33,366 nucleotides of DNA, from assembly GCA_018267675.1 (NCBI GenBank), contig JAFDYA010000170.1, positions 1 to 33,366 of the forward strand. Reading direction: 5' to 3'. The stretch comes from Bacteroidota bacterium. GTDB lineage: Bacteria; Bacteroidota; Bacteroidia; Chitinophagales; Chitinophagaceae. The position numbers were made by a program, and so were the translations under genes. The notes below the pieces were generated by a model. The model searched no databases. It saw nothing but the letters and a program-made list of their open reading frames with translations, and had not been told where the DNA came from. This document shows positions 3,571-33,107 of this stretch, piece by piece. The first letter of the stretch is position 1. Each line of letters opens with the position of its first letter.

Positions 3571-4998
3571 CTACTTTCCTCTCCCCTGAAAAAGTACTAC
3601 AAAAGTGTACAAGATTATTTTTAAGTCTAAAGCCAGAGAGCAATTTTCAATATAGAGTAGGTCGTACTTCATCCGCTCCTTCATCTCTTCCACGTTTTCG
3701 GCATAGCCAAATTGCACCATACCCCAAGAGGTGAGGCCGGGTTTCACTTTATGAAGGTAGCGATAATGGGCTTGTGATTCGGAGATGAGCTTTATGAAAT
3801 AGTCCCGCTCCGGGCGGGGGCCAACAAGACTCATATCTCCCCGAAGGATATTGTAAAACTGAGGCAGCTCATCAATCCTCCATTTGCGCATCACCCTGCC
3901 CCAGCGGGTAATCCGTGGGTCATCTTCACTACTCAGCGCCGGACCATTAGGCTCAGCATTCTGCCGCATGGAGCGAAACTTAAAAATGGTGAATGGTGTA
4001 CCAAAACGTCCAATTCGTTCTTGTTGATAAAACACAGGTCCGGGAGATGAGTTCTTCACTTTTATTGCGGCAAACAAATAGAGTGGTGACAGAACAATCA
4101 TTGCTGCCGCCGAAACAATGACATCAATTACCCGCTTACAAACTCGTTGCCAATCCGCCATCAAGTCCGGATAGATATGGATCAATCCCACATCATACAC
4201 ATTACTTGTCTTCACAGAGCCGGAAACGATATCATATAAATCGGGCAGGATCTTAACTACTACAGGCCGATGGCTCAGGCGATTCAAAATTTGCTCCAAA
4301 AGATAGTGTTCGGAACTATCAACTGCTACTATGACTTCTTCTATATTGTATTGATCAATGATGGATTCTAACTCCGATATTTGCCCCAACTGCGGCAGAT
4401 AATTACTCATGCCGTTGCTCGCCTCCAAGCTGGAATATACAAAGCCGACAAACTGATTACCCAAGGCTCTTGGGCTATCAACAATCTGCTTGTAGATACC
4501 GATAGCTTGAGCATTACCACCAATAATAAGCGTCTTAAAACCCGCCTTACCCGTCTTCAGTTTATGCTTTACAGAATACAAAAGAAGGAAACGAACGAGT
4601 AAGGTCAATGCTGTATGAATCAACATATACCTACCGGTCATTTTTATAAACCAGGAATGGTCCGTTTGATCATCCGCAAATACAGTCAAAGAGATGATGA
4701 TTGTCCCGATGATGCAAGAGATGAGTGTCCGGTTCAGTTCGTGCAATCTTGATTTCCGATATAGATCAAAATAGGTTCCGGAAAGAGTGTATAAGCTCAC
4801 CCAGCTAAGTGGCACGAGGAGCAAGCCCATAACCCAATCCCTTAGGCCAAACACTTCAAAAACATGATGGAACGAGGAGTAGCCGAGCAGCCAATGTCGG
4901 TACATCCAAAAGAGCATCCAAGCCACCACCGCTGCTGCATAATCCAGCAGGAGCATTTCCGTAATGGCTCTTCTTTTCTTTGGATCGTTTAGCTTCAT
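3571..4998 (-). CDS. Polyprenyl glycosylphosphotransferase (undecaprenyl-phosphate sugar-1-phosphate transferase)
   Basis: An inner-membrane initiating transferase that places a sugar-1-phosphate on undecaprenyl phosphate, the first step of exopolysaccharide, capsule or O-antigen synthesis. The 475-residue protein has four hydrophobic segments in residues 12-140, a Rossmann-like CoA_binding_3 region (TLIIGGNAQAIGIYKQI, 156-172), a further hydrophobic segment at 291-315, and the bacterial sugar transferase domain at the C-terminus. Signatures there include PGPVFYQQERIGRFG (319-333), FKFRSMR (339-345), RIDELPQFYNILRGDMSLVGPRPE (374-397, key Asp-Glu and Arg-Pro-Glu) and KPGLTSWGMVQ. The architecture matches the WcaJ/WbaP-like polytopic class. 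The substrate sugar cannot be read from the sequence. It lies between a lipoprotein gene and scpA; no Wzx/Wzy or other glycan operon is next to it. Confidence 0.9.
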   Translation of the reverse strand: MKLNDPKKRRAITEMLLLDYAAAVVAWMLFWMYRHWLLGYSSFHHVFEVFGLRDWVMGLLLVPLSWVSLYTLSGTYFDLYRKSRLHELNRTLISCIIGTIIISLTVFADDQTDHSWFIKMTGRYMLIHTALTLLVRFLLLYSVKHKLKTGKAGFKTLIIGGNAQAIGIYKQIVDSPRALGNQFVGFVYSSLEASNGMSNYLPQLGQISELESIIDQYNIEEVIVAVDSSEHYLLEQILNRLSHRPVVVKILPDLYDIVSGSVKTSNVYDVGLIHIYPDLMADWQRVCKRVIDVIVSAAAMIVLSPLYLFAAIKVKNSSPGPVFYQQERIGRFGTPFTIFKFRSMRQNAEPNGPALSSEDDPRITRWGRVMRKWRIDELPQFYNILRGDMSLVGPRPERDYFIKLISESQAHYRYLHKVKPGLTSWGMVQFGYAENVEEMKERMKYDLLYIENCSLALDLKIILYTFVVLFQGRGK

Positions 4999-11355: not shown

Positions 11356-13143
11356 CTAGGCCGAGACAGGACTCAACTGTAAGCGACTAAAGATTTCTTT
11401 TAGTTGGCCTTCAGCCTCGAACAACTCTGCTTTCATTTTGGCAAATGCAGCTTTTGATGTAGGTGTCATCTGAGGGAGAAGTTGCCGGTAATAGGCTATT
11501 CCTTCCACTAATTGCTCCTTGAATTTCTGGAAATACTTCAGCTTTTTATCGTTCAAATCTTTGAGGCTCATGCTAATTTCCTTCTTCACATAGGCAAGAT
11601 ACAAGTGCAGCTCATTGATAAAAACATGGGGGCGTAGTACTCCCTCCAGAAGATTCTGATGGCCATAAATATGCCTAACCATTTCATCCAGATTAAAGAC
11701 TCCTGAAAAATAGGCTGTATTTGGCCCTGGGCAAATAGCCACTGCATCCCGTTCTTTCGGCTTCAAGATATCATACTTGATATAGGCGGAAACCGCTAAA
11801 CCTTCACAAAGGCAGGCTTTCTCGGTAATATTTTCATAGGCCTCCCGATATTCCTCCGAGCTCAATTGCCTATCATCAAGTTGCTTGATTTTTAACTCTT
11901 GAAACTGGCGAGATGCTGTACAAATGGGTTCTGTAGTAAATTCAGTATTGGACACCAAAAGCTTTTTCACGCAAGGGCTACCCGGCCTCCCTTTGGAAAT
12001 CCTTTCTAGTCGCTGCTTTTCAATGCTACTCTTTCTGAAATTATTGAATGGCACACCCAATGGAGAGGAACCACTGATGTAAAAATCTTCTTTGGTAGCG
12101 GTGGCCAAATCGCTAAGCGTAGATTCGTCAACGGTTGTTGCTTCGGGAACCAACAGAAAGGGGCTTCCCCAGCCCGTGCCGTCCAGGCCATAGTATGCCA
12201 TCAGGAAATCATGCTCTTCCGCAGTCCCGATTCCTCCCTGATAGCAAATTCTTTGCTCCATAACCGGCAGTGTTCCTATCCCCTTTTCAGCTAAAGCTTT
12301 CTTGTAGATTTCCAATAAATCCTGCTTCATCTGCGCCCTATTATGCTTAAACTCCTCAAGAATTGGCCCTGCCAAAAGCCCCTCGGTAGCAAAGGCATGA
12401 CCACCACAATTCAACCCAGACTCTATTCGAAATTCGGAAATCCAAATCCCTTTTTTGGCTAAGAACTTTGCCTGAATCAACGCAGAGCGATAGTCACTCA
12501 CCTTAAGAATAATTCGCTTCTTGGGAGCTGCTCCAGCCTCGGGAAAAAAGTCTGGAAAGGACTCAATATAGCTGTACAATTTTGGGTTCATTCCCGCAGA
12601 GAGTACCACTGAAGAGTTGAGTTTACTCTCTGCAAATCCTTTCAGGGACTCCAAGGCATCACTATTGACGACATCCCCTGCTCCATTGCGATTCAGCTTA
12701 TCCACTTTAGCCATGATATTTACATCAATCGCTCCTGCACTCAGCTTATCCTTCAAAGTCTGTGCACTTACCTTTTCGTCGCCGGCAACAAACAATCGAT
12801 ACATCTTTTTTAGAGGCGCTTGCTCAGGAAGCAGCTCAAAGTAGCGCACCAATTCACCCTTTTTTTCAAAGCATTCCTTCTTCAACTGATCAATCTTTTC
12901 ATCCACCAATTCTTGAACCAGGTTCAAGTAAGCCGTTATCCTTTTGGAGCGGAACCCATGCTCTTTATCAGTAATCGGATGATAAGGTTGATTGGTCTGC
13001 TCCAAATAATATTTGCGCATCCGCTCAATCACCATATCATCCACGATTGATAGGACAGAATTTATGCCCAGATGAGCCACTTTTATTGGCGTGTCTATAG
13101 TAAATGCAATACCTAATACCGGAATGTGGAATGTATGTCCCAT
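11356..13143 (-). CDS. Uncharacterised protein with NMO/FabK-like FMN-barrel motifs and a Cys-rich C-terminal half
   Basis: A 595-residue protein I know only as a conserved hypothetical. Its N-terminal 350 residues carry features of the nitronate monooxygenase / FabK / PfaD group of FMN TIM barrels: the opening IPVLGIAFTIDTPIKVA (7-23), a GGH motif at 247-249 (the group's active-site His region), the phosphate-loop-like GGIGT at 303-307, and DGTGWGSPFLLVPEA at 321-335 where the barrel's last part should be. Insertions make it longer than normal family members. The C-terminal half has five cysteines (391, 408, 444, 446, 471; CLC and ICPGPN among them), which may bind metal or an Fe-S cluster, and ends in a helical stretch. 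There is no signal peptide. It stands alone, convergent with kynU (53 bases apart), and has 260 bases of non-coding DNA upstream. The oxidoreductase call is inference. Confidence 0.7.
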   Translation of the reverse strand: MGHTFHIPVLGIAFTIDTPIKVAHLGINSVLSIVDDMVIERMRKYYLEQTNQPYHPITDKEHGFRSKRITAYLNLVQELVDEKIDQLKKECFEKKGELVRYFELLPEQAPLKKMYRLFVAGDEKVSAQTLKDKLSAGAIDVNIMAKVDKLNRNGAGDVVNSDALESLKGFAESKLNSSVVLSAGMNPKLYSYIESFPDFFPEAGAAPKKRIILKVSDYRSALIQAKFLAKKGIWISEFRIESGLNCGGHAFATEGLLAGPILEEFKHNRAQMKQDLLEIYKKALAEKGIGTLPVMEQRICYQGGIGTAEEHDFLMAYYGLDGTGWGSPFLLVPEATTVDESTLSDLATATKEDFYISGSSPLGVPFNNFRKSSIEKQRLERISKGRPGSPCVKKLLVSNTEFTTEPICTASRQFQELKIKQLDDRQLSSEEYREAYENITEKACLCEGLAVSAYIKYDILKPKERDAVAICPGPNTAYFSGVFNLDEMVRHIYGHQNLLEGVLRPHVFINELHLYLAYVKKEISMSLKDLNDKKLKYFQKFKEQLVEGIAYYRQLLPQMTPTSKAAFAKMKAELFEAEGQLKEIFSRLQLSPVSA

Positions 13144-13405
13144 GTTGTGTTTTACTCAAGCAGAGTTGGGCAAAGAATCATTTTCTATACCGGAATAGTT
13201 GTGACTTTAGTCAGTCGGAATAATGACCTTATAGGGTTCGGCTGTTTTATAAAGGGAGGCAGCCATACCCCTACACTATATTCCTTGAGCTACATAAACC
13301 TTCGCCAAGACGATAATAATCATCTGCATCTATTTCGAAGCACTAAACAGAGTATTCCCTCCAAGATAAATGAGGGATGTGCCCAAATGGAAAAATTTGA
13401 CCGCG

Positions 13406-31913: not shown

Positions 31914-33107
31914 TTGAAATCCATCCTTTTCCACGTCAACTCATTCCTGGCCGGAGGTATAGAGAAAGTACTGATCGAATTGCTCCGAGCAATGGATCCA
32001 AGCAAGTACGACATCCACCTGTCGATTGCGTACAATTTTGAAGAACAAGAGGTATTACTATCAGACATCCCGGCCAATGTGCAGGTGCACCATTTGCTCA
32101 ACGAAACCTGGTTGATGCAAGCACAAAAGAAGAAAAAGACCGGCAAGATTAGCTTGTTTGAAAAGCTATTTTCAGAACTAATCCTTCCTCCCTTTCGGAA
32201 ACGTGCACAGGCAAAGGCATTGAGAGAACTTTTAAAGACAATGGACATCGTCATTGACTTTGACACCACCTTGGGTCCGTTCTATAAACTATTCCAAAAC
32301 AAGAAAACTGCTGCATATTGCCATTTTAGTTTTGGGCAAAATTGGAACGGCAACAAGCGAAAATTGGACAAGCTAGCTGCTCGTCTGATGCACTACAATC
32401 GCGTGGTGATGCTTTGCAAAGAGATGCAGGATGAGACAGCCTTGCTCTATCCGCCTCTAGCACCTAAACTAGTCACTATCTACAACGCCCTCGACAAGGA
32501 TAGGATTCTCGAATTGGCCAAAGAACCTATTGACCAGAGTCAACTCCAAGGCAGGCCTTACATCGTATCCGTGGGTCGGCTGCATGAAGCACAGAAAGAC
32601 TTCACAACATTAGTGAAGGCCTATATTGACGCGGTACAACGCTTTCAGATTGAAGAGTACCTTGTGCTTGTTGGCTATGGCTCGGCAAGAGAAAGCCTTG
32701 AGCAACTAGCGCAGGATGCCGGACTTGCTGATCGGATCATCTTTACCGGTTTTCAGACCAACCCCTATAAGTGGATTGCTAACTCCAGCCTATTTCTATT
32801 CAGCTCAAAATATGAAGGGCTCCCTACCGTATTGATTGAAGCAATGATCCTGGATAAGCCCATCATCGCAACAGCCTGCCCTACGGGTGTAAAAGAACTG
32901 TTGATGAATGGTGCAGCCGGGATACTTACCCCCGTAGGTGATAGAATCGCGATGGCAAATGCCCTGAACGAACTCTTAAAAAATGAGCGATTACAAATTA
33001 AATTCAGCGAGGCAAGAGCAGCATTTCTACAGCATTTTGAGCCCAAATACATGGTCAGTAGAGTGGAATCATTATTGATTGAAAACAGTGAGGTACTGCA
33101 ATCTTAA
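31914..33107 (+). CDS. Glycosyltransferase family 4 protein
   Basis: A 397-residue GT-B fold transferase that moves a sugar from an activated donor to a growing glycan, probably at the cytoplasmic face of the inner membrane. The N-terminal Rossmann domain begins SILFHVNSFLAGGIEKVLIELL, typical of the family. The C-terminal donor domain starts near YIVSVGRLHEAQKDFTTLV and contains VGYGSARESLEQLA, IIFTGFQTNPYKW and the EX7E-type motif EGLPTVLIEA with the donor-binding Glu residues. Donor and acceptor are unknown. The start is TTG at 31914: the text matches the family beginning from there, and the first in-frame ATG would remove the first strand and helix. It could act in exopolysaccharide or LPS synthesis. 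Confidence 0.91.
   Translation: MKSILFHVNSFLAGGIEKVLIELLRAMDPSKYDIHLSIAYNFEEQEVLLSDIPANVQVHHLLNETWLMQAQKKKKTGKISLFEKLFSELILPPFRKRAQAKALRELLKTMDIVIDFDTTLGPFYKLFQNKKTAAYCHFSFGQNWNGNKRKLDKLAARLMHYNRVVMLCKEMQDETALLYPPLAPKLVTIYNALDKDRILELAKEPIDQSQLQGRPYIVSVGRLHEAQKDFTTLVKAYIDAVQRFQIEEYLVLVGYGSARESLEQLAQDAGLADRIIFTGFQTNPYKWIANSSLFLFSSKYEGLPTVLIEAMILDKPIIATACPTGVKELLMNGAAGILTPVGDRIAMANALNELLKNERLQIKFSEARAAFLQHFEPKYMVSRVESLLIENSEVLQS

Follow-up and report, generated by a model that had tools for sequence, protein, structure and literature searches.

The protein encoded on the minus strand at positions 11356-13143 of the analysed window, a stretch of 33,366 nucleotides from a member of Chitinophagaceae, very probably belongs to the FabX branch of the nitronate monooxygenase (NMO) flavoprotein superfamily, as a distant relative of unusual length, with flavin/Fe-S oxidoreductase as its predicted class. 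An earlier sequence-only reading of the same DNA had arrived at an oxidoreductase with flavin and a metal or Fe-S; this is supported and can be sharpened to the FabX branch, the cofactors being predicted ones. As the best overall explanation of its role we propose a FabX-branch acyl-thioester enzyme serving unsaturated fatty acid synthesis at low oxygen, to which we give an even chance. The gene itself, for which the earlier reading had left out the strand, is real: the minus strand contains a single open reading frame of 595 amino acids (ATG at 13143, stop at 11356), and the plus strand of the interval is not open and has many stops. The protein and its homologues of similar length are called the long form below, and its features are collected in Table 1.

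Table 1. Features of the long-form gene and of its upstream region, in window coordinates.
Feature	Position	Strand	Basis
CTGACTAAAGTCAC, a CRP/FNR-like palindrome lying 58-71 nt before the ATG	13201-13214	-	One of just two TGAYN4RTCA cores present in the 33 kb window
Whole gene, long-form FabX-like protein of 595 aa (P0001)	11356-13143	-	Open reading frame; homologues with 55-62% identity over nearly full length; 142/395 phylum genomes
Insertion of helices after the first strand and before the main barrel (residues about 36-132)	12748-13038	-	AlphaFold2 secondary structure
Main TIM-barrel part, residues about 137-365	12049-12735	-	AlphaFold2; Foldseek/VIA-align; profile of 1-365 against FabX branch
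VNIM (141-144); N142 aligned with FabX FMN ligand N99	12712-12723	-	Profile alignment; role of N99 from PMC8626469
Helix 218-230 with invariant R219, K226, K230; putative counterpart of FabX ACP-binding helix alpha7	12454-12492	-	Conservation; AlphaFold2
NCGGH (245-249) with putative catalytic H249 (FabX H182) and invariant C246	12397-12411	-	Conservation; profile alignment
Loop GGIGT (303-307) of flavin-phosphate type, paired with FabX GG220-221	12223-12237	-	Profile alignment; FabX contacts from PMC8626469
GWGSPF (324-329), aligned with FabX flavin motif QMATRF	12157-12174	-	Profile alignment
Cys region, residues about 371-495	11659-12033	-	FabX match stops at 495 (VIA-align)
C391	11971-11973	-	Invariant; aligned with C319 of Bacteroidales FabX-like family
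C408	11920-11922	-	Invariant; aligned with C332 of Bacteroidales FabX-like family
C444-L-C446	11806-11814	-	Invariant; aligned with C358-L-C360 of Bacteroidales FabX-like family
C471 in ICPGPN	11731-11733	-	Invariant; aligns without clear counterpart in relatives
C-terminal helices, residues 507-586, absent from FabX	11386-11625	-	AlphaFold2 models

FabX of Helicobacter pylori (HP0773) is an acyl-ACP dehydrogenase/isomerase. It contains FMN, a catalytic histidine (H182) and a [4Fe-4S] cluster held by C300, C304, C308 and C320, binds ACP by a positive helix, and passes its electrons in vitro to oxygen as the final acceptor (PMC8626469). Its Neisseria homologue, NGO1024, is needed for anaerobic synthesis of unsaturated fatty acids, with an acceptor that PMC11300592 describes as unknown. 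In the same paper a Parabacteroides gene is called FabX, and overexpression of a Bacteroidales homologue is reported to lead to ceftriaxone tolerance (PMC11300592).

The AlphaFold2 model of the long form, built on a 67-sequence alignment (pLDDT 88, pTM 0.90), contains the TIM barrel on which the earlier reading depended, and comparison by Foldseek and VIA-align shows it to be of the NMO/FabK/PfaD/FabX kind. The best Foldseek match in PDB is H. pylori FabX (E 1e-10), followed by the PfaD family (3.5e-8) and then by FabK and nitronate monooxygenases. VIA-align also puts FabX on top (Z 22.2, 326 residues aligned, rmsd 3.1, 17% identity), with residues 1-495 of the model superposed on FabX 7-363. 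Because FabK (Z 21.0) follows only about one Z unit below, comparison of folds cannot by itself pick out FabX. This closeness, together with the Z of 18.6 for PfaD, counts in favour of an alternative in which the enzyme is of the NMO/FabK/PfaD type with flavin alone, and the cysteines bind zinc or are structural. FabK shares with the long form an NMO-type TIM barrel with FMN and a histidine, but has neither Fe-S cysteines nor profile similarity to it. PfaD and trans-acting enoyl reductases, compared by fold and NCBIfam, are of similar length and also have a barrel with extra helices, but their fold similarity is lower.

Comparison of profiles makes the flavin-only enzyme improbable. A deep profile of the long form matched the combined FabX branch with a score of 83.8 (prob 96.6, E 5e-10), against 22.4 for FabK/NMO, at most 27.2 for decoys (unrelated neighbour families) and at most 22.9 for 30 column shuffles; the similarity of the FabK/NMO set to the long form is therefore no better than that of decoys. 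Residues 1-365 alone recover the FabX branch at E 1.9e-7 and the Cys half alone at E 4e-4 to 6e-4, the latter over 15 residues around the CLC motif. The significance came only with deeper alignments: a shallow first comparison with six sequences was collinear and insignificant (prob 1%), and against only three short FabX-type sequences the long-form profile reached E 8e-4 with prob 24. A FabX-like protein of 420 amino acids from the same phylum matches PDB FabX at 2.6e-27, and the long form is aligned collinearly with the Bacteroidales FabX-like family over 272 columns. In these alignments the cysteines of the long form coincide with the Cys region in FabX-like proteins, and both share CLC, which also argues against a flavin-only enzyme. 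The kinship to NMO, FabK and PfaD suggested by the sequence-only reading holds as to the kind of barrel, but FabX comes first in both structure and profile.

The protein is too distant from H. pylori FabX for any Pfam or NCBIfam model, and models of PHROGs and PADLOC do not match it either. PF03060 (nitronate monooxygenase) is not matched even at E 10, although the fold superfamily is common to both, and TIGR03151 (the FabK equivalog of NCBIfam) is not matched. Pfam applied to 67 family members gave no consistent family, with PF03060 absent among the families shown, and a sequence search of PDB returned only coiled-coil noise originating in the C-terminal helices.

The features shared by the long form and H. 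pylori FabX are the best fold match, an aligned catalytic histidine, a Cys-rich part following the barrel and a low-oxygen setting. The long form differs in its length (595 versus 363 residues), in the helical insertion and C-terminal helices, and in the number and spacing of its cysteines. The FabX spacing Cx3Cx3Cx11C is absent from it, though its five cysteines of this region are invariant. On account of the different spacing we place it in the FabX branch at some distance and do not call it FabX itself, and with five cysteines in place of four the ligands of the cluster are ambiguous. The earlier assignment of the cysteines to an extra domain can be refined: residues 366 onward, modelled alone, give no confident fold (pLDDT 61, to which a shallower alignment may have contributed), and so look like a FabX-type subdomain packing on the barrel and not like a free domain. 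The long family itself is widespread and unnamed, with a low-oxygen link in part of its range.

The sequence-only reading had correctly named the motifs GGH (residues 247-249), GGIGT (303-307) and DGTGWGSPFLLVPEA (321-335), as well as cysteines 391, 408, 444, 446 and 471. These five, whose conservation it had left to be checked, never vary in full-length homologues (143/143), even where identity falls to 41%. The same is true of C246, which had been overlooked and lies inside N-C-G-G-H249 beside the flavin motif. The wider alignment comprises 144 sequences, and its sole gap at an invariant cysteine is due to a truncated contig; all six cysteines are also without variation in a smaller alignment of 81 sequences. 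Besides C246 the long form has two other cysteines outside the list, C91 and C300, which are hardly ever conserved in either alignment. Conservation among the 144 sequences reaches 97% or more at 105 residues. H249 is invariant in the long form and pairs with H204 of the Bacteroidales FabX-like family and with the position of FabX H182.

When 84,980 species genomes were scanned, 135 relatives of the protein came up, the best 80 of which are all recorded as Bacteroidota and have 55-62% identity over almost the full length. A homologue is encoded in 142 of 395 sampled Bacteroidota genomes. Such conservation and spread lie far beyond chance. Mobile or viral origin of the gene was considered and dropped, as searches of phages, plasmids and viral contigs gave zero matches; nor did Foldseek find a match of the model among viral structures. 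One genome (G152) has two intact copies of the gene. Another (G095) has, besides an intact copy elsewhere, a second, degraded one with in-frame TGA stops (contig C1, 4371179-4372474).

The 420-aa FabX-like form was found in 83 genomes of the phylum sample and the long form in 142, with no genome carrying both. It is restricted to few families, so that this mutual exclusion may simply mirror ancestry; its carriers would be gut-type Bacteroidales. Counterparts of long-form H249, C391, C408 and CLC are all present in the Bacteroidales FabX-like proteins. The long form exceeds them by about 170 residues; it has ICPGPN and no CWTCG motif. The Cys pattern of the 420-aa proteins likewise departs from H. 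pylori FabX spacing. Six loci with NMO-family proteins of this form (L146, L147, L148, L150, L151, L152), mostly from one family, show the arrangement NC..KC..CLC..CWTCG.

Gene context suggests that the long-form gene works when oxygen is scarce. In Sphingobacteriaceae its common neighbours are a PAS histidine kinase, a fusion of response regulator and Crp-type domain, and HemN, and further an LdhA-type D-2-hydroxyacid dehydrogenase, CcoI and the operon of cbb3 oxidase; universal stress proteins (Usp) or a protein of the acetyl-CoA hydrolase/transferase family also adjoin. Outside Sphingobacteriaceae the neighbourhood is highly variable; a regulator of the Rrf2 kind and RIC, a protein of Fe-S repair, recur in distant lineages. 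Co-occurrence with CcoN (cbb3) across genomes is not strict. The genome of the window has cbb3 genes, and it also has two FA_desaturase genes. FA_desaturases are a class of enzymes that require oxygen, which leaves room for an oxygen-sparing route.

A CRP/FNR-like box points in the same direction. Of 109 homologues, 70 have the core TGAYN4RTCA in the 300 nt before the gene, usually at a distance of 48-114 nt from its start, and 39 lack it; in random 300-mers its frequency is 4.9%. For the box of E. coli type, TTGAYN4RTCAA, only near-matches were found upstream of homologues, and the looser core was picked after seeing the data and then retested on other genes. It precedes 50/60 long-form copies led by an intergenic region versus 51/230 other genes of these loci, low-oxygen genes being part of that background. 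In the genome of the window, the same core stands upstream of both a CcoNO fusion gene and a CcoI gene (boxes at 4244 and 6859; contig C192, locus L217, 1780-6781). Since the more divergent homologues are mostly without the box (seven loci carry one among L153-L192), the support for such regulation extends to just a part of the family. The other core in the window, TTGACCAGAGTCAA at 32530-32543, is a perfect FNR consensus of E. coli type and probably a chance occurrence, as it lies inside the open reading frame 31914-33107.

The frequent adjacency, on the same strand, of the PAS histidine kinase and the response regulator-Crp fusion could also mean that the protein is a non-catalytic redox or oxygen sensor using its Fe-S/flavin barrel as a switch. 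Invariance of the putative catalytic histidine and flavin motifs, as well as the strong variation of the neighbourhood beyond Sphingobacteriaceae, speak against a sensor, and we consider it very improbable.

A FabX-branch enzyme with FMN and [4Fe-4S] may instead act on another low-oxygen substrate and make no unsaturated fatty acids for the membrane. It could, for example, convert an acyl-CoA or enoyl-CoA during fermentation or the turnover of lipids, or else an intermediate of the quinone or carotenoid type. The neighbours agree with this, being genes of fermentation and respiration (LdhA-type dehydrogenase, acetyl-CoA hydrolase/transferase family, cbb3); no fatty acid synthesis genes are among the conserved ones. 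FadH, an FMN/Fe-S barrel, reduces acyl-CoAs (PMC12691678), and the helical insertion and extra C-terminal bundle are both lacking in FabX. Yet the nearest homology is to acyl-ACP enzymes, and the basic helix that carries the invariant residues R219, K226 and K230 appears to occupy the position where ACP docks on FabX. We regard another substrate as a distinctly possible alternative, at less than even chances; by analogy with FabX, acyl-ACP as substrate and an unsaturated fatty acid as product at low oxygen come only slightly short of an even chance.

For the fatty acid role we propose the following mechanism. FMN would be bound in the TIM barrel beside H249, and a [4Fe-4S] cluster near the flavin would be held by four of the cysteines C391, C408, C444, C446 and C471. 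An acyl thioester, probably acyl-ACP, would enter over the flavin and, as in FabX, be dehydrogenated by flavin and H249. Isomerisation, with a tunnel favouring the cis form, would then give a cis-enoyl product to be elongated by fatty acid synthesis, again by analogy with FabX. Electrons would leave one at a time via the cluster, and their acceptor would not have to be oxygen. Expression would occur at low oxygen under a regulator of CRP/FNR type, when oxygen-dependent desaturases would fail. We infer FMN, the cluster with its ligands and the redox chemistry; the acyl-ACP substrate, the unsaturated fatty acid product and the electron acceptor are put forward more weakly. The complete proposal, in which a widespread, unnamed long FabX-branch family with a differently liganded cluster and a non-oxygen acceptor makes unsaturated fatty acids in aerobic and facultative Bacteroidota short of oxygen, replacing the shorter FabX-like protein of other members of the phylum, is tentative and less likely than not.

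No domain library names this family, although 142/395 genomes sampled from a major phylum encode it and about a hundred of its residues are nearly invariant. If our assignment is true, it would explain how many Bacteroidota could adjust their membranes without oxygen-dependent desaturases, and FabX-type chemistry would gain a new set of ligands and a far wider distribution. It would also offer a case for settling whether oxygen is needed as acceptor, a point on which H. pylori FabX, with its use of oxygen in vitro, can be set against the Neisseria homologue, which works anaerobically (PMC11300592).

In the window, the long-form gene is flanked by genes for kynureninase and a pseudouridine synthase, i.e. 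by no low-oxygen genes. The kynureninase gene (PF22580; 10034-11302, plus strand) is convergent with it. Kynureninase is also found within few genes of the long-form homologue in three other loci (L178, L181 and L189), so that the linkage of the two genes may recur.
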